Shown one piece after another: positions 6,232 through 17,744 of a stretch of 47,035 bases of DNA. Source of the stretch: a virus. Every line of letters starts with the position of its first letter. Within the stretch, counting starts at the first letter, position 1. Below the pieces are notes generated by a model. The model was not told the DNA's origin and searched no databases. It worked only from the letters and a program-made list of their open reading frames with translations. The stretch is taken from positions 1 through 47,035 of IMG/VR virus record IMGVR_UViG_3300021599_002278, one strand, 5' to 3'. A program made the position numbers and the translations under genes.

Positions 6232-6254
6232 ATTATATCATGAAGGGCTGACAT
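6232..6254 (-). promoter_or_regulatory. Short-spacer early promoter (ATGTCA-N11-TATAAT)
   Basis: On the minus strand: box ATGTCA (6254-6249), 11 nt, TATAAT (6237-6232). The box lies in the loop of a GGGCTG/CAGCCC hairpin (6245-6265) that could terminate the gene at 6286. Confidence 0.75.
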
Positions 6255-6265
6255 TGCGCCAGCCC
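6245..6265 (-). terminator. Hairpin overlapping a promoter
   Basis: 6-bp stem GGGCTG/CAGCCC, downstream of the 6286-6429 gene. The promoter box for the next gene lies in its descending part. No long T tract. Confidence 0.4.
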
Positions 6266-6285
6266 CTCAATGTATGATAGATTTA

Positions 6286-6429
6286 TTACTTCTTGACTGG
6301 GGTCTCAGCTGAAAACTTGATTCCCTGCTTTTCCGCCTCTTGTAGAGCAACCTTAGCTGCGCCTGAGAAACGTCCACGGGCACCAACTGTGATTCCCTTA
6401 GTCTTTAGATATTCTCGCTTTGTTGTCAT
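6286..6429 (-). CDS. Lsr2 C-terminal-domain-like DNA-binding miniprotein, 47 aa
   Basis: The sequence 'REYLKTKGITVGARGRFSG' followed by a helix resembles the DNA-binding end of actinobacterial Lsr2 (helix, Gly-x-x-V-x-x-RGR, helix), whose RGR loop inserts into the minor groove of AT-rich DNA. It lacks Lsr2's N-terminal dimerisation domain. It could mimic or interfere with host Lsr2 silencing. It has its own standard-spacing promoter and RBS GAAAGG. Confidence 0.6.
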   Translation of the reverse strand: MTTKREYLKTKGITVGARGRFSGAAKVALQEAEKQGIKFSAETPVKK

Positions 6430-6459
6430 GTTTGATCCTTTCTAGATCGGTTTGTTTTA

Positions 6460-6488
6460 ATTATATCAACTTTTCACGGTTTTGTAAA
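6460..6488 (-). promoter_or_regulatory. Standard promoter TTTACA-N17-TATAAT
   Basis: Minus strand: -35 at 6488-6483, -10 at 6465-6460, spacer 17 nt. It is unlike the short-spacer promoters of the neighbouring genes and drives the Lsr2-like gene. Confidence 0.7.
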
Positions 6489-6533
6489 TAGCTGACGTAA
6501 ACCAGGCATTTCGCCCATACTTCGTAAATCGGA

Positions 6534-6671
6534 TTATTCGCCCTTATCGGACATCCGATCTTTAATTAATTTAGCAATGATGTTGTGGGCCTCAATATTT
6601 TCAGTTTCAGATCCACCCCACAAAAGCTGCTGAGCTCTATTTAGTTGTTGATCGATATAGATGTTAGTCAT
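6534..6671 (-). CDS. Hypothetical helical protein, 45 aa
   Basis: MTNIYIDQQLNRAQQLLWGG then 'AHNIIAKLIKDRMSDKGE'. Overlaps the end of the 126-aa gene by 8 nt, so it is coupled to it. Its 3' end contains the palindrome ATCGGACATCCGAT (6546-6559). Confidence 0.55.
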   Translation of the reverse strand: MTNIYIDQQLNRAQQLLWGGSETENIEAHNIIAKLIKDRMSDKGE

Positions 6672-7044
6672 CTCCATCTTCGTCCTCCTCTTCATCCAAC
6701 CAGGAATCATCGTCTAATGAGACCAGGAAATTGTTTTCTCTCATCCAGTCAGTAATTGTTTCCTCAATGATTTCTCCACCAAGGTCGGAATGTAGTCCCA
6801 AGGAATCTGTATCCTCCCAGAACTTGTCCCAGATTTGTTTTAGGGTTACACCCTCAGCAATGACCTGTTCTTGCCATTCTTCAGCAGGCCCTTGATTAGT
6901 CTTAAAGATGTCGTCAATGACGTCATAGGTCCATACCCACATTAATGACGGGAAGACGGGAAGAGCAGAAATCTTTTCTTTAATTAAACCTAACTCAGTA
7001 AAGACATCATCCCTACGTGTTGCTTCTTGTAAATCAATTGACAT
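6664..7044 (-). CDS. Hypothetical acidic protein, 126 aa
   Basis: Start ATG 7044 (MSIDLQEATRRDDVFTELGL) has an AAGGGAG RBS; longer versions have none. Trp-rich middle and an extremely acidic C-terminus (DDDSWLDEEEDEDGDD), a feature of DNA-mimic or chaperone-like phage proteins, though this is only suggestive. Common type of actinophage hypothetical. Confidence 0.65.
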   Translation of the reverse strand: MSIDLQEATRRDDVFTELGLIKEKISALPVFPSLMWVWTYDVIDDIFKTNQGPAEEWQEQVIAEGVTLKQIWDKFWEDTDSLGLHSDLGGEIIEETITDWMRENNFLVSLDDDSWLDEEEDEDGDD

Positions 7045-7261
7045 ATGATAACTCCCTTTCGTGCCATTCCGCCAATGTCCGAACGACAAAGTCTTTTCCT
7101 AGATTATAACAGAATTGGACCGCTTCGGTCAATGATTCTGTCTCATATATTGGCATGCCATGTATCTCAGATTTATCATACACTTCAAACATGTCAATTC
7201 CTCCTGGTGAGCAAGAGTACTCCATTTCCAGGATTTCTAATACTGGCTCATAATTACTCAT
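7034..7261 (-). CDS. Hypothetical protein, 75 aa
   Basis: Start MSNYEPVLEILEMEYSCSPG with GGAGGG 6 nt upstream. Overlaps both neighbours (11 and 8 nt). No recognised domain. Confidence 0.65.
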   Translation of the reverse strand: MSNYEPVLEILEMEYSCSPGGIDMFEVYDKSEIHGMPIYETESLTEAVQFCYNLGKDFVVRTLAEWHERELSYVN

Positions 7262-7526
7262 TTTTACCCTCCTGTATCGCAAACGATAAATCATAAGTTA
7301 GTTTGTAAAGTACTGTTAATGTGTCTAAGACACCTTCACAGCGTGTTCGCTCCATGGAATCCATGGCTTCTCCTGATTGGTCCTCATGTTCTTGTGCAAC
7401 TGTTAAATCCTGCTCAGCAATGAGCATTAGATTCTTTAGTTCTCCGTGCATGATGTCAAGGCCTGATACACCTGCATTGACCATGCGTTGCAAATGGGGC
7501 GGGAGCCCAATGTCTTCTGCATTCAT
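7254..7526 (-). CDS. Hypothetical helical protein, 90 aa
   Basis: ATG 7526 overlaps the TGA of the upstream secreted-peptide gene (ATGA), so translation is coupled; a GTG two codons upstream is an alternative. The sequence is amphipathic helical (LKNLMLIAEQDLTVAQEHED). Function unknown. Confidence 0.65.
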   Translation of the reverse strand: MNAEDIGLPPHLQRMVNAGVSGLDIMHGELKNLMLIAEQDLTVAQEHEDQSGEAMDSMERTRCEGVLDTLTVLYKLTYDLSFAIQEGKNE

Positions 7527-7684
7527 CGGCACACCCGCTTTGTCACATATCTGTAATATGTGTATGACTTGCTAGATTTATCTTTAACTTGATATCTTTT
7601 GTATGTACATACCTCAGCATTTGCTGGGGCGGAAGTAATAGGAAGTAGTCCCAATACAACCATTGCTACAATTGCTTTCTTCAT
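7523..7684 (-). CDS. Secreted Cys-containing small protein, 53 aa
   Basis: A classical signal peptide: MKK, a hydrophobic stretch (AIVAMVVLGLLPI) and an AxA cleavage site (SAPANA|EV). The mature part is about 30 residues, basic and Tyr-rich, with two Cys that could form a disulfide. RBS GAAAGG and a short-spacer promoter at 7712. A phage early gene exporting a tiny basic protein is unusual; cell-envelope or exclusion roles are possible. Confidence 0.7.
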   Translation of the reverse strand: MKKAIVAMVVLGLLPITSAPANAEVCTYKRYQVKDKSSKSYTYYRYVTKRVCR

Positions 7685-7899
7685 TATTCATACCTTTCGT
7701 TAGAGTTATTCATTATATCAGTTGCCACTGACAATAAATGCCTGGTTGCTTCAATTTGTCCTGGAATATCAATTACATTAATAGATTCAGGATTCATTTC
7801 TAGGTCCTGTTCAAGACTAAGTAAATGAAGCTTCATATACTCAATGAATGCTGATGATCGGGTTACGTATGCTGATTCCATTTTAATCCTGATATCCAT
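7684..7899 (-). CDS. Hypothetical protein, 71 aa
   Basis: Starts MDIRIKMESAYVTRSSAFIE. An internal short-spacer promoter for the next gene lies inside this coding region (7712-7734). RBS GAGGG. Overlaps the upstream gene by 17 nt. Helical, function unknown. Confidence 0.6.
   Translation of the reverse strand: MDIRIKMESAYVTRSSAFIEYMKLHLLSLEQDLEMNPESINVIDIPGQIEATRHLLSVATDIMNNSNERYE
7712..7734 (-). promoter_or_regulatory. Short-spacer early promoter (TTGTCA-N11-TATAAT)
   Basis: Minus strand: box 7734-7729, -10 7717-7712, spacer 11 nt; inside the 7684-7899 coding sequence. The leader continues to an AACGAAAGG RBS for the secreted peptide. Confidence 0.75.
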
Positions 7900-8047
7900 C
7901 AAAGTATCCCTCAGCCCACAAGCCTTGGAGAAATGTTAGCGCTGTTGTAAGACCACCCGTTGTAGCCTTATCTAATTTGGCGGAACCAATAGCGTCTGCT
8001 AATGAATCCATCATGATATTTAAATCCTCTAAGTCATAGCCTAGCAT
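7883..8047 (-). CDS. Hypothetical protein, 54 aa
   Basis: MLGYDLEDLNIMMDSLADAI... 'LTFLQGLWAEGYFDGYQD'. GGAGG RBS 6 nt upstream. Overlaps neighbours on both sides. Helical; no family recognised. Confidence 0.6.
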   Translation of the reverse strand: MLGYDLEDLNIMMDSLADAIGSAKLDKATTGGLTTALTFLQGLWAEGYFDGYQD

Positions 8048-8277
8048 TATGCCTCCTCATTCCATTCTAGATAATATTGGTCTTCGGGTTTCAAATCATA
8101 GAATTGATTGAACCTACCTTTAATATAGTTGTCGTCTGACATTTCAGCAAATCTAAAATCAGCATACATCTGACCCTCATCTAAATTTGCATTAACCCAA
8201 TCTTCAACTAGCATTTCGCCAATTTCAGAATAGATTGCGTCAATCACCATTTGGTTTTCGTTTTCTAAGAAACTCAT
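8047..8277 (-). CDS. Hypothetical acidic protein, 76 aa
   Basis: MSFLENENQMVIDAIYSEIG...; RBS AAAGGCGG. The ATG overlaps the stop of the broken Api92-like gene (ATGA). A short-spacer promoter 26 nt upstream (8303-8325) gives it independent expression. Function unknown. Confidence 0.65.
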   Translation of the reverse strand: MSFLENENQMVIDAIYSEIGEMLVEDWVNANLDEGQMYADFRFAEMSDDNYIKGRFNQFYDLKPEDQYYLEWNEEA

Positions 8278-8914
8278 ACATCCGCCTTTTCTCTAGATTC
8301 CAATAATACCATGTGGGTCTGACATTTTGCCATAGCCTCTTCATCTTGCCAAGAACCTTGGTTACATTCTGAGCAAAATTCTCCGCAGTCATCTTCACAA
8401 TAGTCCAATGTATTAAAAGATTGGCAAGCATAGCAGCGATTCTCGTAATCTAGAATTTCTTTAACATCACCACGGACAATCTCATATTCACCACCCCAAC
8501 CTGTTTCCTCCTCATACTCTAATGTGAGCAGGCAGTTAGGAACAAGATTACTTAGTTTAGTTAAGATAGTTACAGCAGGTGACCAAGCAGTCTCATACTT
8601 ATAGTTTTAGCAAACTCAACAGACTTGCGGAACCAATCAGGGTCTTTCATGTCAATACCACCACGGTCAGGCTGGCAGGCATATTCCTCATCAGTAATGC
8701 CGTCATCCTTATATGAATGAATGTTGAAGAAAGCAAAGACAGGATTAGAATAAGTTACTTCTTTAATTTTGGTGGGGAACCCATGAGCATTAATATCACC
8801 CATACCATAAGTCTCTTGTGCTAAAGTGAATGGACTATTAAGTCTATCCTTGATATAATCAATTTCTGACTTTGGACCTTGTATGGTCAAAGTGTTATAT
8901 ACCCAATTTGGCAT
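8274..8914 (-). pseudogene. Api92/DUF1281-like protein, broken by an internal deletion and frameshift
   Basis: The N-terminal part (8914 to 8570) begins MPNWVYNTLTIQGPKSE and continues to 'YACQPDRGGIDMKDPDWFRKSVEFAKT', a typical phage Api92/YubB ferredoxin-like-fold protein. After FAKT the frame runs into unrelated residues and stops. In another frame the typical downstream part resumes at about 8607 (YKYETAWSPAVTILTKL, then EETGWGGEYE) and ends in a Cys-rich zinc tail at 8274. The segment that normally joins them (roughly 50-60 residues in relatives, from memory) is missing. Confidence 0.7.
8303..8325 (-). promoter_or_regulatory. Short-spacer early promoter (ATGTCA-N11-TATTAT)
   Basis: Minus strand: box 8325-8320, -10 8308-8303, spacer 11 nt; within the 3' part of the broken Api92-like gene, serving the gene at 8277. 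Confidence 0.7.
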
Positions 8915-8941
8915 TTGATATCCTTTCGTTGATATGGCTTA

Positions 8942-8964
8942 ATTATATATCAGACCACTGACAT
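8942..8964 (-). promoter_or_regulatory. Short-spacer early promoter (ATGTCA-N11-TATAAT)
   Basis: Minus strand: box 8964-8959, -10 8947-8942, spacer 11 nt, followed by the CAACGAAAGG leader of the Api92-like gene. Confidence 0.8.
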
Positions 8965-8982
8965 TTGGGAAGAGGATATCGG

Positions 8983-8998
8983 TGTGATTCACACCACA
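8983..8998. promoter_or_regulatory. CRP/GlxR-like operator (imperfect)
   Basis: TGTGA-TTCACA-CCACA; one mismatch from TGTGA-N6-TCACA. It lies 19 nt upstream of a short-spacer promoter box. Confidence 0.45.
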
Positions 8999-9097
8999 TG
9001 ATCTCAAAGCTTGGGATTTCCAGGAAAAATATTTGACATTCGTAAAACAAATATGATACCCTCAGTCTTTTGCGGGCCATATATTAGATTAAATAGT

Positions 9098-9201
9098 GTA
9101 AAGGCTGCTAGGGTACCAACGAAAGTAAAAACCCTGCTTTACTTAGCGACTAGGGGAGTCCCTGGTAGCCGCACCTTTACCATGTAGAAGGCACATGGCC
9201 T
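9098..9201 (-). ncRNA. Structured RNA candidate with three helices and a pseudoknot
   Basis: Read on the minus strand: a leading hairpin (CCATGT/ACATGG, 9198-9180), then P1 GTAAAGG/CCTTTAC closing the element (9180-9174 with 9104-9098). Inside are P2 (GCGGCTA/TAGTCGC with a GGG-ACT-CCC tip) and P3 (AAGTAAA/TTTACTT). The P3 loop contains AGGGT, complementary to ACCCT just before the closing strand, a likely pseudoknot. No open frame fits. A TATAAT box lies 7 nt before the predicted start. It is not a tRNA or tmRNA. It could be a regulatory leader for the 8914 gene or a free small RNA. Confidence 0.6.
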
Positions 9202-9207
9202 ACTAAT

Positions 9208-9213
9208 ATTATA
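9208..9213 (-). promoter_or_regulatory. -10 element TATAAT of the structured RNA
   Basis: Minus-strand TATAAT at the end of the 9209-9574 gene, preceded at 11 nt by CAGTCG (a weak match to the early box) within the palindrome AGTCGACT. Transcription would start near 9201. Confidence 0.5.
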
Positions 9214-9574
9214 CCATAACTAGTCGACTGTATTTTTCTACAAAAGAATTTAGCGGCAGGCTAAACACTTCTGTTTTTAAATCTTCTTCTACTAGTGTAA
9301 ATGTTTTCTTAGACCAATTAATGATTGGAATCCTGTGCTCATTGTCAGACAATTCATTAATAGTAATTCCCCAACCTGTTTCGCCAGGCCAGTCTTCATT
9401 AATCAATTGTGAAATACATATACGTGTTGCATATGCTTCATCCGTCCACCTTGGCTCCGCTTTTTGCACAGCATTTGCTAAACGTTCTAACATCTGATAT
9501 CCAGCCCAGTGCCCGTATAAAAAGACTGTGTCTCCCTTACGGTCCTGAAACCCAAAGTTTGCTCTGTCTCCCAT
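9209..9574 (-). CDS. Conserved phage hypothetical protein, 121 aa
   Basis: MGDRANFGFQDRKGDTVFLYGHWAGYQMLERLA..., then 'YATRICISQLI' and 'GWGITINELSDNEHRIPIINW'. I recognise this as a widespread actinophage hypothetical (MGDRANFGF family) of this length. No enzymatic motif. The stop overlaps the promoter of the structured RNA. Confidence 0.75.
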   Translation of the reverse strand: MGDRANFGFQDRKGDTVFLYGHWAGYQMLERLANAVQKAEPRWTDEAYATRICISQLINEDWPGETGWGITINELSDNEHRIPIINWSKKTFTLVEEDLKTEVFSLPLNSFVEKYSRLVMV

Positions 9575-9575
9575 T

Positions 9576-9785
9576 TTATTCCGCCTTTTCTAGTTGAGGT
9601 ATTGCTTCTTCCATTTTGTTTAATTCTATAACTTCATAAGCCTTTTTGTCAAGGGCCTCTTTGTTTTTGTTATAATGGTGGCCACAGAAAGCTAGCTCGC
9701 CATCTATTAGTTTAACTAAGTACATAGCTTGAGCTGAGCTGCATTGATCACAGCCAATCCATTTGTTTAGATCTTCAGAGGTCAT
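9576..9785 (-). CDS. DUF7455-like zinc-ribbon protein, 69 aa
   Basis: Core 'CDQCSSAQAMYLVKL' ... 'AFCGHHYNKN' gives a C-x2-C and C-x2-H(H) zinc site, characteristic of the DUF7455 family common in actinobacteria and their phages. ATG 9785 was chosen because the upstream DNA codes for another protein in a different frame; ATG and the stop of that gene overlap. Confidence 0.75.
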   Translation of the reverse strand: MTSEDLNKWIGCDQCSSAQAMYLVKLIDGELAFCGHHYNKNKEALDKKAYEVIELNKMEEAIPQLEKAE

Positions 9786-9930
9786 AGTCAACGGTTCCAA
9801 ATTCAATGCGGTCTGCAATGTCGTCATATACTTGGCCATCATCTTCTGATTCAGCCCATAGTCTGATGTTGTTAATTATAACCTCACGGGCAAACTTAAC
9901 TCCATCTTCAAAACCGTCTTGGTAATCCAT
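9775..9930 (-). CDS. Hypothetical acidic protein, 51 aa
   Basis: MDYQDGFEDGVKFAREVIIN... 'LWAESEDDGQVYDDIADRIE'. GAGGAG RBS. It lies 1 nt after the upstream stop and overlaps the DUF7455-like gene by 11 nt. Helical, Asp/Glu-rich. Confidence 0.6.
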   Translation of the reverse strand: MDYQDGFEDGVKFAREVIINNIRLWAESEDDGQVYDDIADRIEFGTVDYDL

Positions 9931-9931
9931 A

Positions 9932-10144
9932 CTATCTCCTCGTGTATCCTGTCGGTTCGTATTCTGAAAAATAAGTTTCGGTTAAATTAAACTTATCTCT
10001 TATCCGACTTACTTTCTCAATACTACCAGTTCCAATATTGAATGTCAATGGGTCCATTGCCTCTGGGTCCAGACCCATAATTTGTGCATCCCAATAGGCC
10101 CTCTCCATGGAGAGCCTATCAGGAGCAGTTAACTCAAAATACAT
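9932..10144 (-). CDS. Hypothetical protein, 70 aa
   Basis: MYFELTAPDRLSMERAYWDA... ending 'YFSEYEPTGYTRR'. Its ATG overlaps the last base of the upstream gene. Function unknown. Confidence 0.6.
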   Translation of the reverse strand: MYFELTAPDRLSMERAYWDAQIMGLDPEAMDPLTFNIGTGSIEKVSRIRDKFNLTETYFSEYEPTGYTRR

Positions 10145-10788
10145 TATGCTTCCCTCACATAACAGATTTCAGTATCGCCAATCTCAATGTTGCCACTTTG
10201 TGAATCAACGAAAAGATTGTCTGTGATTTCTGTTTCGAAATCATAGTCTTCAAGGATGTTTAGGTCAATTGTTCCACTAACTTCAATAGTTGCGGTGAAT
10301 TCAATTGTTCTAGTTAATTCAATGTTAAGCGCTTCAGCAATTGCACGAAGAGTATCTTGGTCCTCTGAATCTGCATACGCTTCAGTAATAATATCTTTAA
10401 CTGTATTAATGTTGGATTCAAATACTCCAACACGCTTTTGTGCCTGACGTCCATTGTGTAGGTCCCACTCAATGCTAGCAACTTTATCAGTTGCATATTC
10501 TGCATCCGAATATCCACGAATAACCTTATAGGTTACTAATAGATTAGAGTTATATGACTCAGGGACGGTTGTTATTGTTGTTTCCATTTGCTCCTCTTTC
10601 GTTTGTGTAGGTTGTAGTGTAGCATGCTCCACTGACAATAATGTAGTTTTACGACCACACGGGCATGTGAGTTCTGTCACACCTGACGGGAATCCAAATC
10701 CGTCAGATGATGTTAATTCAATTAAAGAATCGCATTCATCTGGATCGCAGACAAATGTGTACTTACTTGATATGAGTTCGTTGGTCAT
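10144..10788 (-). CDS. Zinc-binding early protein with an in-frame internal gene
   Basis: ATG 10788 lies 6 nt after a short-spacer promoter's -10 box (leaderless); the 214-aa product starts MTNELISSKYTFVCDPDECD. Two Cys pairs (CDPDEC and CPCGRK) suggest a zinc ribbon in the first 65 residues. A second promoter (10616-10638) and a strong AAAGGAG RBS precede an in-frame ATG at 10587, giving an alternative 147-aa product (METTITTVPESYNSNLLVTY...) that looks like a complete acidic beta/alpha domain. Two nested products are therefore likely. Confidence 0.65.
   Translation of the reverse strand: MTNELISSKYTFVCDPDECDSLIELTSSDGFGFPSGVTELTCPCGRKTTLLSVEHATLQPTQTKEEQMETTITTVPESYNSNLLVTYKVIRGYSDAEYATDKVASIEWDLHNGRQAQKRVGVFESNINTVKDIITEAYADSEDQDTLRAIAEALNIELTRTIEFTATIEVSGTIDLNILEDYDFETEITDNLFVDSQSGNIEIGDTEICYVREA
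10616..10638 (-). promoter_or_regulatory. Short-spacer early promoter inside a gene (TTGTCA-N11-TACACT)
   Basis: Minus strand: box 10638-10633, -10 10621-10616, spacer 11 nt; leads to AACGAAAGGAG and ATG 10587. Confidence 0.7.
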
Positions 10789-10794
10789 GGAAGA

Positions 10795-10817
10795 ATTGTA
10801 CCAGGCCTCACTGACAT
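10795..10817 (-). promoter_or_regulatory. Short-spacer early promoter, leaderless (ATGTCA-N11-TACAAT)
   Basis: Minus strand: box 10817-10812, -10 10800-10795, spacer 11 nt. The ATG at 10788 follows the -10 by 6 nt. Confidence 0.75.
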
Positions 10818-10887
10818 TTACAAGCATTTCAGGAGCTTTTTTATGTGATTCGTAACACAAAAGTTCCGCCTTCACATTTGCGGGCCG

Positions 10888-11081: not shown

Positions 11082-12086
11082 TTAAAACGCTTTTACCAAC
11101 TTGAGAATTTTATTTTTCTCAGCAGTTAGAACAGGGTCAAAACCACTTGCACCAGCCATTAGTGATTCTGAATTACCACGACCAGAGCGGTAGTAATCAA
11201 GGCGTTCAGTTAGAGCGTTAAATGCGCCCCACTTAGTTCCTTTAATTGTGGCGTTAGTTGGTGAGTTATGATAAAGGTCATCAAGCAAGACAACTTTATT
11301 TTCCCACTTCTTTAGCGCACCCTTAGAATCCTTTTCAGGCTTAGGGTAAATTGTTTGAATCAACTTAGAAAATTCTGCGTTAGTAATCTCTTGCTTAAAG
11401 AGTTCTTGCGCTTCCTTTTCAAATTCATCAAAGTAACCTAGAGCAAGCCCTAGAGTTTCACGAGCAACTTGAATTCGTCCTTCAACAGATTGAGTATGAC
11501 GAATTTTGAATGATTGCTTAGCATTACGCATAGCAAGATTCAAAGTATTTTGGCATACAACACGAACAGGTGTAACCGCTGCTTGAACAGCAACAGAGCC
11601 ATCGTGTGATGTCCATACAATAAGATAAAGTTTTGTTTGGTCATTAGCGCCTTGTGGGTCTAATACCATTGTGCGGGGAATATCGACAGTGCCGAAAACA
11701 ACTTTACCCTTTTTTAGTGAGCCAGCAGATTCCCAACGGCAATCAGCATTGGCATCGTGAATTGCATCAGCAAAAGCAAATAGTTCTTCATTCTGAACAG
11801 GCTTATAGCGCTTGCCCACAGTTGCTAGAACATCAGTTTCCTGATTAAATGGATTTGTGCGTAGCACAAGGTGAGCATCTGAAACATCATTCCAAGATTC
11901 TGAAATGTGGTCAGTTAGTGGAGACAAGCGAACATTCCAATTCGCTAGTTTTGCTTCTTCAAGCATTGTTTGAGTAGTTACATCTTCATCTTGATTAAAG
12001 ATGCGATTTGCGAGATTATGCCAAGCGGGTTTTCCACGCAAAGCAAAGGCAACTTCATTGCCATTTGTTTCTAGGTTATGAGCCAT
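11082..12086 (-). CDS. DUF932 / phage-plasmid TIGR03299-like protein, 334 aa
   Basis: Start ATG 12086 (MAHNLETNGNEVAFALRGKPAWH) has CGAAAGG upstream. 'GKPAWHNL', 'RTNPFNQETDVLATVGKRYKPVQNEELFAF', 'VFGTVDIPR' and 'TPVRVVCQNTLNLA' (each a short excerpt) are hallmarks of the DUF932 family found on phages and plasmids. The molecular role of the family is unknown; it is generally an early gene. Length is typical. Confidence 0.85.
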   Translation of the reverse strand: MAHNLETNGNEVAFALRGKPAWHNLANRIFNQDEDVTTQTMLEEAKLANWNVRLSPLTDHISESWNDVSDAHLVLRTNPFNQETDVLATVGKRYKPVQNEELFAFADAIHDANADCRWESAGSLKKGKVVFGTVDIPRTMVLDPQGANDQTKLYLIVWTSHDGSVAVQAAVTPVRVVCQNTLNLAMRNAKQSFKIRHTQSVEGRIQVARETLGLALGYFDEFEKEAQELFKQEITNAEFSKLIQTIYPKPEKDSKGALKKWENKVVLLDDLYHNSPTNATIKGTKWGAFNALTERLDYYRSGRGNSESLMAGASGFDPVLTAEKNKILKLVKAF

Positions 12087-12117
12087 AGATTTATCCTTTC
12101 GATTGGTTGATTGTGCA

Positions 12118-12140
12118 ATTATAACAGGTGGCACTGACAT
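12118..12140 (-). promoter_or_regulatory. Short-spacer early promoter (ATGTCA-N11-TATAAT)
   Basis: Minus strand: box 12140-12135, -10 12123-12118, spacer 11 nt. Drives the DUF932 gene. Confidence 0.8.
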
Positions 12141-12592: not shown

Positions 12593-13015
12593 TTATAGAT
12601 AACGAGCAACTGCGTTGTATGTGGAAGTATTGACTACTTCCTCATCTGTCATCTTTAAGATGCGAATTGCGTTTGTGATTTCCTCTTTTTGCTCACGATA
12701 AGTGTGAGAGTGAATTACCTCAAAGTCCTTCTCAGGCTCAGCAGGAAAATCATTTTCGCTAACTGTTAGGTCAAAATCTACATTGAGAGTTTTGTTCCAA
12801 GCACGATAGTTGGTGCGTAGATTTTCAGCCTTAGCAAAATGAGCAATAGCATACTTGCCGATTTCCTTCTGCCACTTTTCACGGGCTTTCTGATACTTTG
12901 CTTCGTTCTCGCCTTGTGTGGCGTAGTCCTTCTCTAGTTTTGCTAGAGCAGTTTCTAGTGCCTTGATTACCTTTGGTGTAGCAATCTTGACATTTATAGA
13001 TTTTCCTCTTGACAT
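12593..13015 (-). CDS. Conserved actinophage hypothetical, coiled-coil, 140 aa
   Basis: MSRGKSINVKIATPKVIKAL then a long charged helix (ALAKLEKDYATQGENEAKYQ...), a middle 'NYRAWNKTLNVDFDLTV' and a C-terminal 'TNAIRILKMTDEEVVNTSTY'. RBS AACGAAAGG and a short-spacer promoter at 13052. Function unknown. Confidence 0.7.
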   Translation of the reverse strand: MSRGKSINVKIATPKVIKALETALAKLEKDYATQGENEAKYQKAREKWQKEIGKYAIAHFAKAENLRTNYRAWNKTLNVDFDLTVSENDFPAEPEKDFEVIHSHTYREQKEEITNAIRILKMTDEEVVNTSTYNAVARYL

Positions 13016-13051: not shown

Positions 13052-13074
13052 ATTATAGCAGGGGGGTCTGACAA
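13052..13074 (-). promoter_or_regulatory. Short-spacer early promoter (TTGTCA-N11-TATAAT)
   Basis: Minus strand: box 13074-13069, -10 13057-13052, spacer 11 nt. The box is in the loop of the terminator of the upstream gene. Confidence 0.8.
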
Positions 13075-13083: not shown

Positions 13084-13089
13084 CTCTTT

Positions 13090-13266
13090 TTATACTAGGG
13101 CAGAATTGCTAACTGTTGTCCAACGAGTTTCCTTCGTTGGCATTTCTAGCAATACACGCACCGAGCCAGATGCGTTAGGAATAATCTCCTTGATTACGCC
13201 TGTTTTCTTTGACTTTAGGGTGGTGAATAAATCGCCAACCTTGTAAGTGTATCCATTTACTGTCAT
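13090..13266 (-). CDS. Hypothetical SH3-like small protein, 58 aa
   Basis: MTVNGYTYKVGDLFTTLKSK... 'KTGVIKEIIPNASGSVRVLLE' ... 'RWTTVSNSALV'. The strand pattern (K-x-G-D, V-x-E-I, V-R-V, W-T-V) is that of a small beta-barrel like KOW/SH3 folds. This is a common early gene of such phages. RBS GAAAGGAAG. Confidence 0.65.
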   Translation of the reverse strand: MTVNGYTYKVGDLFTTLKSKKTGVIKEIIPNASGSVRVLLEMPTKETRWTTVSNSALV

Positions 13267-13291
13267 TTTGCTTCCTTTCTGTTAGGGTAGT

Positions 13292-13314
13292 ATTTTAGCA
13301 TAGGGGGCTGACAT
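13292..13314 (-). promoter_or_regulatory. Short-spacer early promoter (ATGTCA-N11-TAAAAT)
   Basis: Minus strand: box 13314-13309, -10 13297-13292, spacer 11 nt; inside the terminator hairpin 13301-13328. Confidence 0.75.
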
Positions 13315-13328
13315 TTATCAACCCCCTA
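13301..13328 (-). terminator. Terminator hairpin overlapping a promoter
   Basis: 7-bp stem TAGGGGG/CCCCCTA, after the 13343-13609 gene. The loop holds the ATGTCAG box. Confidence 0.6.
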
Positions 13329-13331
13329 GAG

Positions 13332-13347
13332 TGTGAGTTATCTCACA
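13332..13347. promoter_or_regulatory. CRP/GlxR-like palindrome
   Basis: TGTGA-GTTATC-TCACA, a perfect consensus match, overlapping the 3' end of the 13343 gene and lying 17 nt upstream of a promoter box. Confidence 0.6.
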
Positions 13348-13609
13348 ATTCTTCAGGTAGCCACGCTTCTAGGTGGTGAGCATCTACTATGGCAGACGCA
13401 GGGCAGGAAGTCTGCCCACGCCAAGAGATACCTTCAGGTAAGTTAATCTCACGATCAAAATCCTCCTCATAGTATGCGTCAATAGCATCTATGCAAGGTT
13501 GCACCATAGCAACGGGGACGGGTGGGTAATGATTACCCTGCAAGTGATAGGCAAGTCCTGCCTCTAGTGATAACTCATCTGCAATTGTTTGTGCTGTTGT
13601 GTATCCCAT
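13343..13609 (-). CDS. Hypothetical protein, 88 aa
   Basis: MGYTTAQTIADELSLEAGLA... 'YHLQGNHYPPVPVAMVQPCI' ... 'SWRGQTSCPASAIVDAHHLE'. A conserved-looking phage early protein. Its ATG overlaps the last base of the upstream gene. Function unknown. Confidence 0.65.
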   Translation of the reverse strand: MGYTTAQTIADELSLEAGLAYHLQGNHYPPVPVAMVQPCIDAIDAYYEEDFDREINLPEGISWRGQTSCPASAIVDAHHLEAWLPEEL

Positions 13610-13833
13610 TAGTTATTCTCCTTAATTGTTACTTCTGCCCAAGTGTTGTTTTCATTTGCAGTTTGTAATACATTAGACTCGTGGAGAGCGTGTAGTGTTG
13701 CTTCTTTGCACATTTGCTCAATTGAACTTTTATCAAGTGCAATTAATTGTGGCAATAAGTTTGCAGGAATTTTATCCAAGTCAATAATGGCCTCGAATAC
13801 AACTGTGTGTGGAACTTTCATTAGATTAGACAT
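13609..13833 (-). CDS. Hypothetical protein, 74 aa
   Basis: MSNLMKVPHTVVFEAIIDLD... then helical 'SSIEQMCKEATLHALHESNV'. RBS AACGAAAGG, promoter at 13862. Function unknown. Confidence 0.65.
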   Translation of the reverse strand: MSNLMKVPHTVVFEAIIDLDKIPANLLPQLIALDKSSIEQMCKEATLHALHESNVLQTANENNTWAEVTIKENN

Positions 13834-13861
13834 AACTTACCTTTCGTTGTTGGATGAGAGT

Positions 13862-13884
13862 ATTTTAGCATAGGCCACCGACAT
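13862..13884 (-). promoter_or_regulatory. Short-spacer early promoter (ATGTCG-N11-TAAAAT)
   Basis: Minus strand: box 13884-13879, -10 13867-13862, spacer 11 nt. Confidence 0.7.
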
Positions 13885-13916
13885 TACCTAATCCATTTAC
13901 GGCGTGTCGCAGCTTT

Positions 13917-13932
13917 TGTGAGGTTTCTCACA
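13917..13932. promoter_or_regulatory. CRP/GlxR-like palindrome
   Basis: TGTGA-GGTTTC-TCACA, a perfect consensus match, 33 nt upstream of the early promoter box. Confidence 0.65.
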
Positions 13933-13942
13933 TTTTCAGGAG

Positions 13943-13974
13943 TTATCCACAATTACTCGTAAGCCTGTGGATAA
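13943..13974. promoter_or_regulatory. Inverted pair of DnaA boxes
   Basis: Perfect TTATCCACA (13943-13951) and TGTGGATAA (13966-13974) face each other, followed by a CCCCGCACAGATGCGGG hairpin. Confidence 0.55.
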
Positions 13975-13993
13975 CCCCGCACAGATGCGGGCC

Positions 13994-14107
13994 TTATTCC
14001 TCCTGGCCCCAAATTTCAGGATCCACTTCTGCTAAATATTCTTTAGCAGCTTTTTTCTGATCTTCTGTACCCATTACCGTGGCCATTAATGCATTAAAGT
14101 ACTCCAT
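13994..14107 (-). CDS. Hypothetical protein, 37 aa
   Basis: MEYFNALMATVMGTEDQKKA then 'AKEYLAEVDPEIWGQEE'. GGAGA RBS 8 nt upstream, 11 nt after the GP88-like gene. A small acidic helix; function unknown. Confidence 0.55.
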   Translation of the reverse strand: MEYFNALMATVMGTEDQKKAAKEYLAEVDPEIWGQEE

Positions 14108-14118
14108 TTTATTTCTCC

Positions 14119-14838
14119 TTATTTTTTAGTTGCGCTAAATCGAATGTCTGCTTTACCATAAACACATAAACCACATGAAACACATGCGGACCCTGCATTG
14201 CTAATTAGTGGAATTGACTTTAAGTTTTCAGGACACTTAGCGCCAGGCTTACCAGTTAATTCTTTCATTGTGCTTTCAGTGACAGCAAATGTCTTTCCTA
14301 AGTATGCAAGACGAATTCCGTCATTTAGTTTTAGATCATGAGCAATTTCTTTATTCTCATCGTCGGTAGAATAATAAAGAGACAGGTTAGATATATCCTT
14401 AAGGATAAGCGCTGCAGACTTTACTCGTGTATATACCCAAAATTGAACATCGGGATGATTAGAGATAACAGTCTTCCATGCATATGCGTAGGTATCGTTA
14501 AAGAAATCTCCGTCCCAGTGGATACGGAACAATTTAGGAGCGTCTTTCTTATCACAATCGTTAACAAAATCAACAATCATTTCATCCAGGAGCAACAACA
14601 TGCTATCCATGTCTGCATTACGTAGGAGCTCCCAATTGTGAAGAAGATTAGCCTTTACACCTTTGAATAACTTTTCCAATTTGCCAGCGTAGCAAACGCT
14701 TTCGCAGATAGACGTAGCGCCAGGACATGAATAGTCTTTTCCTGCAGGTAATCCGAACGTGTTAGCAATTGCTGCTTGCTTTCCATTTTTTGTGACAAGA
14801 TTAGCCACCTTTCTATCGTTAGAGCGTTTTAATTTCAT
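14119..14838 (-). CDS. GP88 family protein, 239 aa
   Basis: Contains 'FGLPAGKDYSCPGATSICES' followed by 'VCYAGK', and a C-terminal 'CVSCGLCVYGK'. This combination of Cys clusters with the S-C-P-G-A-T motif is the signature of the mycobacteriophage gene product 88 family. The clusters probably bind a metal or Fe-S centre; 'FRIHWDGDFF' lies in the middle. Biochemical function unknown. RBS ACGAAAGG, promoter at 14864. Confidence 0.85.
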   Translation of the reverse strand: MKLKRSNDRKVANLVTKNGKQAAIANTFGLPAGKDYSCPGATSICESVCYAGKLEKLFKGVKANLLHNWELLRNADMDSMLLLLDEMIVDFVNDCDKKDAPKLFRIHWDGDFFNDTYAYAWKTVISNHPDVQFWVYTRVKSAALILKDISNLSLYYSTDDENKEIAHDLKLNDGIRLAYLGKTFAVTESTMKELTGKPGAKCPENLKSIPLISNAGSACVSCGLCVYGKADIRFSATKK

Positions 14839-14863
14839 TAGTTAACCTTTCGTTGTGTGCCCT

Positions 14864-14886
14864 AGTATAACAGAATGCACTGACAT
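14864..14886 (-). promoter_or_regulatory. Short-spacer early promoter (ATGTCA-N11-TATACT)
   Basis: Minus strand: box 14886-14881, -10 14869-14864, spacer 11 nt. Drives GP88. Confidence 0.75.
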
Positions 14887-14976
14887 TTTCTACAACAGGC
14901 CCGCAGATCTAGGGTGTTTTTAATCACATTCTTAACGACACGCCCGAGGCCGCACATGTGCGGGCTAGTTGAAATT

Positions 14977-15105
14977 TCAATCAGTTTTATTTTTATGTTT
15001 TATTTTTCGTGTGTATTTTTTTTTATTGCGAACAGGTTGCGCCGCATTACTGCGACGCAATTCCTGAATGCGTTTTACTTTATCTCGAACTGAAGTTTGG
15101 AACAT
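14977..15105 (-). CDS. Very basic small protein, 42 aa
   Basis: MFQTSVRDKVKRIQELRRSN ... 'RNKKKYTRKIKHKNKTD'. 16 of 42 residues are Lys or Arg, so nucleic-acid binding is likely. It overlaps the upstream gene by 26 nt in another frame. Confidence 0.5.
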   Translation of the reverse strand: MFQTSVRDKVKRIQELRRSNAAQPVRNKKKYTRKIKHKNKTD

Positions 15106-15271
15106 GATACCCACTCGCTTCGTGAAATCGTTTTACATCAAATCGCTCATTATCTTTTGCAAACATCTCCGCAAAATCATTTACAATTTTAGAAAATACA
15201 GCGGGGTGAGTTTTATTGCTAGCATACTTTAGAATTTCTGCGGTTGCTATGTAGTCCTTGCGTGTCATCAT
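15080..15271 (-). CDS. Hypothetical protein, 63 aa
   Basis: M(M)TRKDYIATAEILKYASNKT... 'FAEMFAKDNERFDVKRFHEA' ... This matches a family of small actinophage proteins that start TRKDYI. GAAAGG RBS. Overlaps the upstream stop (ATGA-type). Function unknown. Confidence 0.7.
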   Translation of the reverse strand: MMTRKDYIATAEILKYASNKTHPAVFSKIVNDFAEMFAKDNERFDVKRFHEASGYHVPNFSSR

Positions 15272-15471
15272 TTTGTTGATACCTTTCCATTTCGATAGAA
15301 GTTCTTAGTGTGCATTTTACCATTAGGCTCTGACAAATTATAGGTTGCGTATTCTTTAGCGTCCCCAAAGTCTGAGCATTTATCAAAAGAATGAACGGCA
15401 GTTAGAGCGTCTGAATAAGTTTCAGTTATTAGTGGCGGATTTCCGTCATAAGCGATAGTTAGTTTATACAT
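15268..15471 (-). CDS. Hypothetical protein, 67 aa
   Basis: ATG 15471 (MYKLTIAYDGNPPLITETYS) is preferred because the upstream gene ends there. 'DALTAVHSFDKCSDFGDAKE' follows. Overlaps neighbours at both ends. Function unknown. Confidence 0.65.
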   Translation of the reverse strand: MYKLTIAYDGNPPLITETYSDALTAVHSFDKCSDFGDAKEYATYNLSEPNGKMHTKNFYRNGKVSTK

Positions 15472-15635
15472 TATCCATTCACCCAATCTACTGTTAGTTC
15501 ATCTGCTACATCTGCGACACATTCGCAAGGCTCGCAATCATAATCATTTTCATTTCCCCAAAATACAAATCCTGCGCCACCGCATTCATCACATTCAGCA
15601 GAAATAATTTCTAGGTATTGTTTTACTTTACTCAT
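15471..15635 (-). CDS. Zinc-ribbon small protein, 54 aa
   Basis: Two Cys pairs (ECDECGGAGF and DCEPCECV) separated by ~18 residues form a DnaJ-like or rubredoxin-like zinc knuckle. RBS AAAGGAAAAC. First gene after the 15664 promoter. Confidence 0.65.
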   Translation of the reverse strand: MSKVKQYLEIISAECDECGGAGFVFWGNENDYDCEPCECVADVADELTVDWVNG

Positions 15636-15663
15636 TTAGTTTTCCTTTCGTTTTGTTGTTAGT

Positions 15664-15686
15664 ATTGTATCAGTTAGCACTGACAA
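15664..15686 (-). promoter_or_regulatory. Short-spacer early promoter (TTGTCA-N11-TACAAT)
   Basis: Minus strand: box 15686-15681, -10 15669-15664, spacer 11 nt. Confidence 0.8.
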
Positions 15687-15687
15687 A

Positions 15688-15810
15688 TTAGAGGGCACCC
15701 TCTTGAAATAAACCAATTTCAAGAGTTAGCATTTCATCGGGAGTGGCTTCGGATAAATCTACCCAACCCGCTCCGTTTTCATCTAAGCGAAAAATTTCAA
15801 TGTATCCCAT
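15688..15810 (-). CDS. Hypothetical acidic protein, 40 aa
   Basis: MGYIEIFRLDENGAGWVDLS then 'EATPDEMLTLEIGLFQEGAL'. It lies 2 nt after the upstream gene. The stop abuts the next promoter box. Confidence 0.6.
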   Translation of the reverse strand: MGYIEIFRLDENGAGWVDLSEATPDEMLTLEIGLFQEGAL

Positions 15811-15812
15811 TA

Positions 15813-16019
15813 TTATTCACCTACCTTAACTGCGATAGTTGCGAATTTATTTCGCAGACCGCCAGCATTTACTTCAATTAAAAATGCTTCGGTATTTTCG
15901 CCATACCAAATTGCTGGGCGAGGCTCAGCAGAAATAATCTCACCTGAAAAGTGGCGAGAGTTTGAGCGATAAGTTTTTCCTACAAGTAGGTTTTCGATAG
16001 TATAGAGTTTTGCTGACAT
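15813..16019 (-). CDS. Hypothetical beta-rich protein, 68 aa
   Basis: MSAKLYTIENLLVGKTYRSN... 'GEIISAEPRPAIWYGENTEA' 'FLIEVNAGG' 'ATIAVKVGE'; an SH3-like small barrel is plausible. RBS AACGAAAGG, promoter 16053. Confidence 0.65.
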   Translation of the reverse strand: MSAKLYTIENLLVGKTYRSNSRHFSGEIISAEPRPAIWYGENTEAFLIEVNAGGLRNKFATIAVKVGE

Positions 16020-16052
16020 TTAGTTGTCCTTTCGTTTGTTTCTATGTCTGGA

Positions 16053-16075
16053 ATTATACACGACCCCACTGACAA
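16053..16075 (-). promoter_or_regulatory. Short-spacer early promoter (TTGTCA-N11-TATAAT)
   Basis: Minus strand: box 16075-16070, -10 16058-16053, spacer 11 nt. Confidence 0.8.
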
Positions 16076-16123
16076 TTTTCTACTTACTAGCCAGTAATTC
16101 CAAATAATGAGACGCTCAAGCCG

Positions 16124-16139
16124 TGTGAGAAAAATCACA
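16124..16139. promoter_or_regulatory. CRP/GlxR-like palindrome
   Basis: TGTGA-GAAAAA-TCACA, a perfect consensus match. The 247-bp gap around it also contains CGGGCGTGTCG, ATCGGACA and a CGTGTC-aagtc-GACACG inverted repeat (about 16229-16245). Confidence 0.65.
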
Positions 16140-16266
16140 AAATCTCGGGCGTGTCGCAGGGATCTAGGGTGTTTCGTAAATCGGACATAAACGACAAATC
16201 GCCCCCATAGCTTTTGCGGGCCGTGTCAAGTCGACACGCCGTTGTGTCGAAATGATTTAGATCACA

Positions 16267-16362
16267 CTATTTTTTAATAGTGGCGGCTAAAACAGCAAGG
16301 GCTTCAGCCTTGCTTGCTTCACGTTGTTGTTCAACGTGTTTTCTGAATTCTTCTAAATTCAT
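16267..16362 (-). CDS. Hypothetical helical peptide, 31 aa
   Basis: MNLEEFRKHVEQQREASKAE then 'ALAVLAATIKK': one amphipathic helix. Third gene of the 16646-16267 operon. Confidence is limited by size. Confidence 0.45.
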   Translation of the reverse strand: MNLEEFRKHVEQQREASKAEALAVLAATIKK

Positions 16363-16380
16363 TTTACACACTCGCAATCT

Positions 16381-16458
16381 TTATTCAGGGTGAAAGTTTT
16401 TCACACCTCCGTGTTGATACTCAAACACGATTTTTTCTAAAGTTTTATCGGATAACAT
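16381..16458 (-). CDS. Hypothetical peptide, 25 aa
   Basis: MLSDKTLEKIVFEYQHGGVK then 'NFHPE'. Its ATG overlaps the upstream stop (TAATG), suggesting translational coupling. Very small; tentative. Confidence 0.4.
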   Translation of the reverse strand: MLSDKTLEKIVFEYQHGGVKNFHPE

Positions 16459-16646
16459 TATGCCACCCAACTTTCTTGAGTGTAGGATAACCACTCACCG
16501 AGTGTCATAATTCCTTTATACTCATTACAATTTCCGCAGAAAATTTCTCCTGCGTAGTCTGAGCAAAAAACGCAGACAATTAGATTTGCCTCATCGGCAC
16601 TTACATTTTCGAGAGTAATCTCTCGGATTTTATTTAGTGTAGTCAT
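16458..16646 (-). CDS. Zinc-finger small protein, 62 aa
   Basis: ATG 16646 follows GAAAGG by 8 nt. 'CVFCSDYAGEIFCGNC' is a C-x2-C...C-x2-C zinc site in the middle. Promoter 16683. Confidence 0.65.
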   Translation of the reverse strand: MTTLNKIREITLENVSADEANLIVCVFCSDYAGEIFCGNCNEYKGIMTLGEWLSYTQESWVA

Positions 16647-16682
16647 TTTGACCACCTTTCTTTTTTTATCTTGATACCTAGT

Positions 16683-16705
16683 ATCCTAACATAGACCACT
16701 GACAT
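16683..16705 (-). promoter_or_regulatory. Short-spacer early promoter (ATGTCA-N11-TAGGAT)
   Basis: Minus strand: box 16705-16700, -10 16688-16683, spacer 11 nt. Confidence 0.7.
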
Positions 16706-16756
16706 TTTGACCCGTTTTTCGGGCGTGTCGCAAAACTATTTTTGTGATTTAGGTCA

Positions 16757-16818
16757 TGTGGATAACTTACGCTCAAAATTCCAGGGATTTCCACACCTGT
16801 GTATAAAGCTGTGGATAA
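16757..16818. promoter_or_regulatory. Two DnaA boxes plus CRP-like half site
   Basis: Perfect TGTGGATAA at 16757-16765 and 16810-16818, with TTTCCACACC and GTGTATAAA near-matches between. Immediately upstream (16743-16758) is an imperfect TGTGA-TTTAGG-TCATG. Confidence 0.5.
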
Positions 16819-16874
16819 CGCCCCCAAAAAGCTGCGGGCCGATCTGACAATTGTCAAACCGACACGCCGCTAAT

Positions 16875-17018
16875 TTACTGTGATTTATCTCGCATTGCTA
16901 AACGCCACGACCACACAAGGGCGGGAATACCGATAAGCAAATAGAGCGGGATATTAGCATAGAGCCCTAAGAAATCGGAGTTTATATATAAGAAATCCCA
17001 AGTAATTTCAATCTCCAT
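16875..17018 (-). CDS. Small single-span membrane protein, 47 aa
   Basis: MEIEITWDFLYINSDFLGLY then a hydrophobic segment (ANIPLYLLIGIPALVWSW) and a basic C-terminus (RLAMRDKSQ), i.e. a C-in topology. Function unknown; a membrane-acting early peptide. An imperfect CRP-like site overlaps its stop. Confidence 0.6.
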   Translation of the reverse strand: MEIEITWDFLYINSDFLGLYANIPLYLLIGIPALVWSWRLAMRDKSQ

Positions 17019-17071
17019 TATTCGTATGTCTCCCAATCTAGTGTAAGACATCTGCTTGGATAGTATCCCAT
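17018..17071 (-). CDS. Possible 17-aa coupled peptide
   Basis: MGYYPSRCLTLDWETYE; its TAA overlaps the ATG of the membrane protein gene (TAATGG). It may be a translational leader rather than a functional protein. Confidence 0.25.
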   Translation of the reverse strand: MGYYPSRCLTLDWETYE

Positions 17072-17081
17072 TTAGTCATCA

Positions 17082-17255
17082 TTACTTATTATCTCCTGTC
17101 TTGATAGTCATTACATTAGCAGAAAACTTAGTTTTCTTACCTAGTTCGCTAGCGTTAAGCGATTCGATTAGGTGGTCAATAGCCTTTATATCGTGGGCTA
17201 CATTGTCAATAGATAGTAGGCGAGAGCCTTGCCAAATTGAGTAAGTGATTGTCAT
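17082..17255 (-). CDS. Hypothetical protein, 57 aa
   Basis: MTITYSIWQGSRLLSIDNVA then 'HDIKAIDHLIESLNASELGK'. RBS GAAAGAAGA. It follows promoter 17373, with a leader containing tandem TTAG repeats and a duplicated GCTAGGCTCAC. Function unknown. Confidence 0.6.
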   Translation of the reverse strand: MTITYSIWQGSRLLSIDNVAHDIKAIDHLIESLNASELGKKTKFSANVMTIKTGDNK

Positions 17256-17306
17256 TATCTGTTCTTCTTTCGTTAGTAGTTAGTTAGTTGTTAAGCGGTT
17301 ATTTGC

Positions 17307-17341
17307 TAGGCTCACCTTTCGGATTATTTGCTAGGCTCACG
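17307..17341. repeat. Direct repeat in a leader
   Basis: ATTTGCTAGGCTCAC occurs twice (about 17307-17321 and 17326-17340), separated by 4-5 nt, between a promoter and the 17255 gene. Confidence 0.6.
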
Positions 17342-17372
17342 CTTTAATTCTTATTTAATTGTTATGTCTGTA

Positions 17373-17395
17373 AGACTACACTATAGGTCTGACAT
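17373..17395 (-). promoter_or_regulatory. Short-spacer early promoter (ATGTCA-N11-TAGTCT)
   Basis: Minus strand: box 17395-17390, -10 17378-17373, spacer 11 nt; a weaker -10. Confidence 0.5.
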
Positions 17396-17423
17396 TTTCA
17401 ACCTTATAGGGGGGTGTGTCGTG

Positions 17424-17439
17424 TGTGAGTTACCTCACA
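17424..17439. promoter_or_regulatory. CRP/GlxR-like palindrome
   Basis: TGTGA-GTTACC-TCACA, a perfect consensus match, 29 nt upstream of a promoter box. Confidence 0.65.
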
Positions 17440-17463
17440 TTGACTAGGGCGTGTGTAGCGTAG

Positions 17464-17670
17464 TTACCGCCACACATTACGCATAGTGTCCAAGCGGTTA
17501 GGTGATAGGTAGCGGTGAGAGATTAGACCCTTATCGGCTACCATATAGACATAAGCCATACGGCTAATGTAGTTACCATTAGCAAGACGGAAGATATTGT
17601 TATCCTTAGTGTTACTAGAGGACATTGGATGAGTAGGTTCTACTACTACGCTTACATTTAGTGAGTTCAT
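17464..17670 (-). CDS. Hypothetical protein, 68 aa
   Basis: ATG 17670 follows AAAGGAG. MNSLNVSVVVEPTHPMSSSN... 'LANGNYISRMAYVYMVADKG' ... First gene of the leftward block. The leader contains a GTAAC...GTTAC hairpin. Function unknown. Confidence 0.6.
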   Translation of the reverse strand: MNSLNVSVVVEPTHPMSSSNTKDNNIFRLANGNYISRMAYVYMVADKGLISHRYLSPNRLDTMRNVWR

Positions 17671-17721
17671 TTGAACTCCTTTCTTTAGTAACACCTTGTT
17701 ACTTTCTTTCTTATACCTATA

Positions 17722-17744
17722 ACTATACAGGGGGGGTCTGACAA
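17722..17744 (-). promoter_or_regulatory. Short-spacer early promoter (TTGTCA-N11-TATAGT)
   Basis: Minus strand: box 17744-17739, -10 17727-17722, spacer 11 nt; a C7 tract fills the spacer. Rightmost member of the family. Confidence 0.8.

Follow-up and report, generated by a model that had tools for sequence, protein, structure and literature searches.

Boxed promoters of a leftward phage gene block match the actinobacterial RecA-NDp class and are probably read by host PafBC

The viral contig analysed here, IMG/VR record IMGVR_UViG_3300021599_002278, was taken whole (47,035 bases; hereafter the window) and is partial when compared with its relatives of 110-116 kb. It carries a leftward block of about 12 kb, composed mostly of genes of unknown function, in which gene after gene is preceded by a short box of the form [AT]TGTC[AG] set at a fixed distance from a -10 hexamer; this boxed promoter element is the subject of the present report. 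With the DUF932 frame at 11082-12140 as query, 291 encoding stretches were found among viral contigs, and the best 80 of these 291 were kept. The closest cultured phages belong to the Streptomyces BE-cluster (Stanwilliamsviridae), at about 50% identity, and phage Paradiddles has the same gene order, a leftward block followed by rightward glycosyltransferase and ribonucleotide reductase genes. The Stanwilliamsviridae terminal-repeat block also has DUF932 and GP88 genes in common with the window, and the Paradiddles record places the DUF932 gene at two positions, as expected of a terminal repeat. From this homology and shared order we infer that the window block is the counterpart of the BE-cluster terminal repeats, and its early expression is presumed on the same grounds.

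The initial annotation described 16 leftward sites at which the box precedes a TATAAT-like hexamer by exactly 11 nucleotides (nt). All 16 are real, lie on the minus strand and fit [AT]TGTC[AG]-N11-TANNNT (Table 1); the stricter wording of the box, with A as its sixth base, holds at 15 of them, the site at 13862 having TGTCGG rather than TGTCAG. One further site, at 15314-15336, had been missed and brings the genuine sites to 17. G follows the box at all of them (17/17), as had been claimed; across 161 block sequences, G occupies this place in 1739 of 1882 cases. The pattern WTGTCR-N11-TANNNT occurs 18 times on the minus strand of the window and never on the plus strand, compared with a mean of 0.29 and a maximum of 3 in 200 shuffles of 12 kb made in two-base blocks, and WTGTCAG-N10-TANNNT occurs 17 times on the minus strand and not at all on the plus strand or in reversed form. 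The match at 15997-16019 was rejected as a promoter, the letters ATG TCA G being the start codon region of the open reading frame (ORF) 15813-16019 and the resemblance a coincidence. The confinement of the box to the leftward block also stands, as no loose match was found on the minus strand outside 5.8-17.8 kb, nor anywhere on the plus strand.

Conservation of both box and spacing had been proposed as a test, and both are retained in related phages. When the pair TGTCAG/TANNAT was counted at spacings of 5 to 24 nt over 160 loci, 886 matches fell at 11 nt, and no other spacing gave more than 57. In eight relatives of 110-116 kb the block strand carries 14-18 matches, nearly all within one block of about 12 kb, and the opposite strand 0-4, with 0-2 per strand for reversed-pattern controls. 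A set of 266 nonredundant sites, drawn from 1392, gives the consensus AAWTGTCRG(T/A)SS...TGnTATAAT, in which the invariant letters are those imposed by the search pattern. The register persists where the box was not demanded: among 224 nonredundant anchors selected only by a -10, a ribosome site and an ATG, TGTC stands in the 11-nt register at 157 and at no more than 7 at any other gap, and the box columns stay conserved. Many gene families are boxed almost without exception (81/81 for DUF932, and 77/78, 74/77, 66/66 and 60/60 for others), and a few are never boxed (0/57, 0/32, 0/30, 0/15 and some smaller ones). The register is likewise kept among 80 DUF932 relatives at a greater distance (350 matches vs at most 10), and a pattern scan of viral contigs returned at least 120 stretches, 113 of the 120 among the matches listed being of this phage family.

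Three results, namely the use of TTG at the normal -35 place, the interchange of box and -35, and the leaderless starts, point to the boxed sequence being an activating element on sigma-A promoters, and they bear out the earlier proposal that these sites form a promoter family whose box is not itself a -35. At 55 of the 266 sites TTG stands 17 or 18 nt from the -10, where a canonical -35 would lie, vs 0-9 sites for every other distance between 12 and 29 nt, and sigma-A is therefore used in its normal register. TTG is commoner where the -10 is weak, at 11/19 sites with three -10 matches and 18/110 with six (Fisher p = 7e-4 for up to four vs five or six matches). At orthologous promoters, box and -35 tend to be mutually exclusive (Mantel-Haenszel odds ratio 0.34, p = 1.2e-5, 39 families), with 120 boxed promoters having a -35 and 242 lacking one, compared with 77 and 64 of the boxless; these promoter-level tests take related sequences as independent after a filter of 20-30% difference. 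A -35 is present in 21/28 boxless promoters with a TGn motif and in 61/166 boxed promoters. Two results weaken the picture: in the leftmost gene family the -35 is about equally frequent in boxed (5/8) and boxless (17/22) members, and the 71 boxless anchors without TGn, which we take for mostly spurious, have a -35 in 28% of cases vs 21% at control spacings. A set of 81 block sequences, with much redundancy among them, contains 110 boxed promoters that lack a ribosome site and have their ATG 6 nt (57) or 7 nt (53) past the -10, vs 13 at all other distances below 20 nt. The leaderless site of the window would, judged from its sequence, place the box at -29 to -23, centred on -26.

This box does not appear to be a new phage code, since it matches a published actinobacterial promoter class. 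The promoters of the LexA/RecA-independent response (recA P1, or RecA-NDp) have the consensus tTGTCRgtg - 8 nt - TannnT, and P1-driven recA transcription is reported absent in a pafBC deletion (PMC5656591). PafBC has been described as reprogramming the housekeeping holoenzyme, with the -26 motif recognised by PafB and SigA domain 4 held by PafC, and as being activated by single-stranded DNA (ssDNA) in its WYL domains; a structure of PafBC with polymerase and promoter exists (PMC11804915). The mycobacterial activator and its -26 element are also mentioned in a study of AfsR (PMC10936776), and RecA-NDp promoters have been reported in S. coelicolor (PMC5087735). Ten of the 17 genuine window sites strictly fit the RecA-NDp consensus, a pattern with no match in 200 shuffles, and all 17 fit WTGTCRG-N10-TANNNT. 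The phage and host elements have in common the box, the 8-nt gap after GTG, the TANNNT hexamer, the centre at -26 and little need of a -35. The phage version differs in its setting, with 17 copies in a single 12-kb block, and in a -10 that is nearer TATAAT and accompanied by TGn. We consider it probable (roughly 0.83) that the phage element is a RecA-NDp promoter read by host PafBC, and we infer the dependence on PafBC from this likeness.

On this reading, the box WTGTCRG(TG) would be the PafBC -26 element and TANNNT an ordinary sigma-A -10. Host PafBC, with ssDNA held in its WYL domains, would bind the box and sigma-A domain 4 together, and a -35 would therefore be unnecessary. The block would be early and the trigger would be ssDNA made at entry, during replication or by breakdown of host DNA, with nearly every presumed-early gene placed behind its own copy of the box. 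A large group of lake-water phages has this arrangement, with almost every gene of the presumed early block behind a copy of the promoter. The initial annotation had left the reader of the box open, as a phage or host activator or a sigma variant. An activator is indeed implied, and a host one is favoured because a search of 19 phage records revealed no WYL domain and, in 9 records, no sigma region 4 scored over the cut-off (one match fell below it). A new sigma variant is unneeded, as box and spacing match the PafBC promoter and PafBC acts by sigma adaptation, and it was rejected as the reader on the persistence of TTG at the -35 place. An entire gene block of a phage is thus driven by a host promoter class already known, a new setting for that class, and the best-supported reading of the mechanism is host PafBC triggered by ssDNA; no report linking PafBC promoters to phage gene blocks was found in a literature in which subscription journals were thinly covered.

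Bacterial genomes offer a comparison. Within one class (that of genome G009, presumably Actinomycetes), 248 of 296 genomes contain WTGTCRGTG-N8-TANNNT, with for example 120, 64 and 55 matches where the reversed pattern has 0; among 34 genomes of at most 1.8 Mb, 25 have a match and the strict matches number 65 vs 13 in the control. Ten proteins downstream of the motif, scanned from twelve bacterial loci, comprise RecA (2), RecR (1), DUF222 (3) and four others, an MFS transporter, a penicillin amidase, a weak isochorismatase match and a glyoxalase, and the motif precedes recA in three genomes that were read. Genome G446, of the same class, is a single contig of 1.34 Mb (first 1.3 Mb read) with 48.6% GC. 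Its recA has TTGTCAGTG-N8-TACCTT 187 nt ahead of the frame, and after this motif comes an inverted repeat, taken here to be an SOS box; the window site at 10616-10638 equals this promoter at 19 of 23 bases. A PafC-type helix-turn-helix-WYL gene adjoins a second, WYL-WCX gene in G446, a layout as in pafB-pafC, and the strict pattern is found 6 times vs 0 in the control. Among the places listed, the box varies by genome, some having only ATGTCAG and others only TTGTCGG or ATGTCGG. An earlier scan of 396 genomes of one phylum with a TAYAAT -10 revealed no regulon, pattern and control alike reaching no more than 4 per genome; in hindsight, this -10 is too strict for GC-rich hosts. A search of genome contigs for a phage host gave nothing with DUF932 and only distant matches with WhiB. 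At position 80924 of G446 (locus L421), ATGTCAGTG-N8-TAGAAT stands ahead of a gene whose product is CarD-like by eye.

Several observations weigh against PafBC as the reader. The 'gtg' that follows the box in the published consensus is absent at 7 of the 17 window sites, and PafBC would have to accept GACC, GCCC or GAGC in its place. Against the conservation of the box itself, ten of the 80 more distant loci have at most one box despite at least 6 promoter candidates each. A full graded -35 score is uncorrelated with the -10 score (p = 0.56), and a family-level Mann-Whitney comparison of -35 use in 24 boxed and 8 boxless families gives p = 0.07. In G446, the second WYL gene has no match to a PafB-specific model, NCBIfam names neither gene of the pair, and the loose pattern is not enriched (10 vs 8 in the control); moreover, the pafBC-type genes are known from this genome, which may not be near the phage host. 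In the Streptomyces BE phages, TGTC is in register at 12 of 57 promoters, 9 of these being TGTCC, unlike TGTCR, and the TAGAnT promoters of Stanwilliamsviridae mostly keep a -35 at 17-18 nt; PafBC is therefore not claimed for them. The Streptomyces literature on the motif is divided, with PMC5087735 for and PMC9380542 against, the latter reporting that an initial search suggested the M. smegmatis PafBC motif not to be conserved in S. venezuelae. Finally, recognition of the P1 promoter by ClgR has been reported as well (cited in PMC5656591).

The rival that survives best, though we think it unlikely, is an activator encoded by the phage or carried in its virion that acts on the box as T4 MotA does with AsiA, the likeness to PafBC promoters then being convergent or due to descent. 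At T4 middle promoters, a box replaces the -35 at about -30 ahead of an ordinary -10, and the activator bridges DNA and sigma region 4. The resemblance in geometry noted at the outset is sound and speaks for such a factor; the box sequences differ, however, the phage box being WTGTCRG and not the MotA box, and the block is presumed early rather than middle. The T4 factors are phage-encoded, whereas a host protein is the likely reader of the WTGTCRG box. A further point in favour of a phage activator is that the sixth box base drifts in concert within each phage: in 127 sequences with at least 6 boxes (not deduplicated), the variance of the A share is 0.091 vs a maximum of 0.019 in 500 simulations, with several phages all A, L230 having T at 8/8 and L247 having G at 23/28. 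Such change points to a coevolving trans reader, but differences in PafBC specificity among hosts would be expected to produce it just as well. The suggested search for a WhiB or helix-turn-helix activator did yield WhiB, whose family has members known to bind region 4 of sigma-A, in all 30 long relatives searched (8/8 of the first set and 22/22 further records), and none in the window itself, which is partial. In the 8 relatives of the first set the WhiB gene lies outside the leftward block (e.g. 74701-75012 in G001), and WhiB has been used as an actinophage marker (PMC6802176, PMC10202952). Against a phage factor stand the fit to the published host consensus and spacing, the expectation that the block is expressed first, before phage factors exist, and the outcome of searches that covered the WhiB, sigma region 4, Lsr2, WhiA and WYL families: WYL was found in 0/19 records, and sigma region 4 and WhiA had no match over the cut-off in 9 records each, other DNA-binding kinds not having been searched for.

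It is very improbable that the box is instead a repressor operator within ordinary sigma-A promoters, like the stoperators of cluster A mycobacteriophages. Its place between -35 and -10 is the usual one for an operator, and its TGTCA core, as we assume, recalls those stoperators. However, the register hardly varies, which occlusion would not need, and boxed promoters have lost the -35 more often than their boxless orthologues, as an activating element predicts. Least probable of all is that a different host factor acts at this promoter, either ClgR, for which there is the report cited above, or an unrelated WYL activator, given the loss of P1-driven recA transcription on pafBC deletion (PMC5656591) and the structure of PafBC on its promoter (PMC11804915). 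WhiA was rejected, its GACAC motif having only GACA in common with the reverse of the box, CYGACAW, and no phage gene for it scoring over the cut-off in 9 records. SARP regulators such as AfsR of Streptomyces also act by sigma adaptation between -35 and -10 (PMC10936776), but their sites are direct repeats 11 or 22 base pairs (bp) apart and the phage boxes have no TGTC one turn upstream; they were rejected for want of a direct repeat, TGTC occurring 0 times at gap 23, 1-2 times at 22 and 24, and 2-4 times at 33-34 among the 224 anchors.

If PafBC is the reader, the phage would run its presumed early programme on the DNA-damage activator of its host rather than on consensus promoters or a factor of its own, and an apparently new regulatory code becomes a directly testable one. 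A wider proposal, which we hold only tentatively and at somewhat less than even odds, is that a common group of freshwater actinophages has made the host ssDNA sensor PafBC the start switch of infection, with ssDNA firing the early genes together and the box dialect tracking host PafB. Were this true, the dialect (TGTCAG, TGTCGG or TGTCTG) would follow the PafB specificity of each host and could therefore name the hosts of uncultured phages. The block would also provide a ready set of natural promoters for testing PafBC specificity, and the question is raised of why a phage would wait for a damage signal.

Table 1. Boxed sites and boxless genes of the leftward block in the window. Promoter assignments are predictions; the last column gives boxed members of the gene family.
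Position	Strand	Element	Gene or context	Family boxed
6232..6254	-	box and -10	promoter of ORF 5840-6211	8/30 (orthologous family)
7712..7734	-	strict RecA-NDp, TTGTCAGTG-N8-TATAAT	promoter of ORF 7523-7684	
8303..8325	-	box and -10	promoter of ORF 8047-8277	37/38
8942..8964	-	strict RecA-NDp	promoter of ORF 8570-8914	66/66 (like-protein family)
10616..10638	-	strict RecA-NDp	promoter of short frame 10144-10587	60/60
10795..10817	-	strict RecA-NDp, leaderless	promoter of long frame 10144-10788, ATG 6 nt past -10	
12118..12140	-	strict RecA-NDp	promoter of DUF932 gene 11082-12086	81/81
13052..13074	-	box and -10	promoter of ORF 12593-13015	77/78
13292..13314	-	box and -10	promoter of ORF 13090-13266	49/49
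13862..13884	-	strict RecA-NDp (ATGTCGGTG)	promoter of ORF 13609-13833	25/25
14864..14886	-	strict RecA-NDp	promoter of GP88-family gene 14119-14838	18/18
15314..15336	-	box and -10, absent from initial list	promoter of ORF 15080-15271	12/21
15664..15686	-	strict RecA-NDp	promoter of ORF 15471-15635	36/37
15997..16019	-	chance match, not a promoter	ATG TCA G of ORF 15813-16019	
16053..16075	-	strict RecA-NDp	promoter of ORF 15813-16019	74/77
16683..16705	-	strict RecA-NDp	upstream of leftward ATG preceded by GAAAGG site	
17373..17395	-	box and weak -10 TAGTCT	-35 TTGAAA 17 nt upstream of -10	
17722..17744	-	box and -10 TATAGT	-35 TTGATA 18 nt upstream of -10; rightmost promoter of block	
6286..6429	-	boxless, TTTACA-N17-TATAAT	gene for 47-amino-acid Lsr2 C-terminal-like protein	0/57 (-35 in 57/57)
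9209..9574	-	boxless, full TTGACA -35	gene for 121-amino-acid protein, phrog_31860	0/32 (-35 in 59%)

Of the two boxless genes, that at 6286..6429 encodes a product whose likeness to Lsr2 is limited to the C-terminal, DNA-binding portion; it aligns with the Lsr2-like protein of Paradiddles (46% over 41 amino acids, E 0.008) and has no match in Pfam or NCBIfam. The protein might counter the xenogeneic silencer of the host. The reading frame with two boxed promoters, at 10795 and 10616, would give a leaderless form of 214 amino acids and an internal-start form of 147 amino acids, and relatives show both kinds of start.

Inverted repeats are about three times enriched in the -70 to -10 region between the leftward genes at 6-17.7 kb and in relatives; at 13052..13074, a 9-bp inverted repeat has the box in its loop. 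Hairpins around the box with stems of at least 5 bp number 49 in the 266 sites vs 16.6 +/- 4.1 for re-paired arms. Stems of at least 6 bp are enriched from -70 up to -10, at 217 of 364 promoters vs 122.7 +/- 7.7, and not downstream of the -10, in the 5' leaders. This count pools boxed and boxless promoters. Given where the enrichment lies, the repeats look like terminators or 3' ends of the preceding gene that overlap the next promoter, and the hairpin was rejected as a part of the box. GC-rich repeats, GACACGCC and GGCGTGTC, stand out in the AT-rich block (window positions 13901, 14937, 16148, 16233, 16722 and 16861), and many of those in relatives are found some 35-45 nt upstream of a -10; they were set aside as part of the element, since no more than 9 and 11 of 34 gene families have them. 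Two viral stretches, L345 with 11 boxes and L379 with 4, are unrelated to the early block by tblastn, and from these it appears that other phages may use the same promoter.

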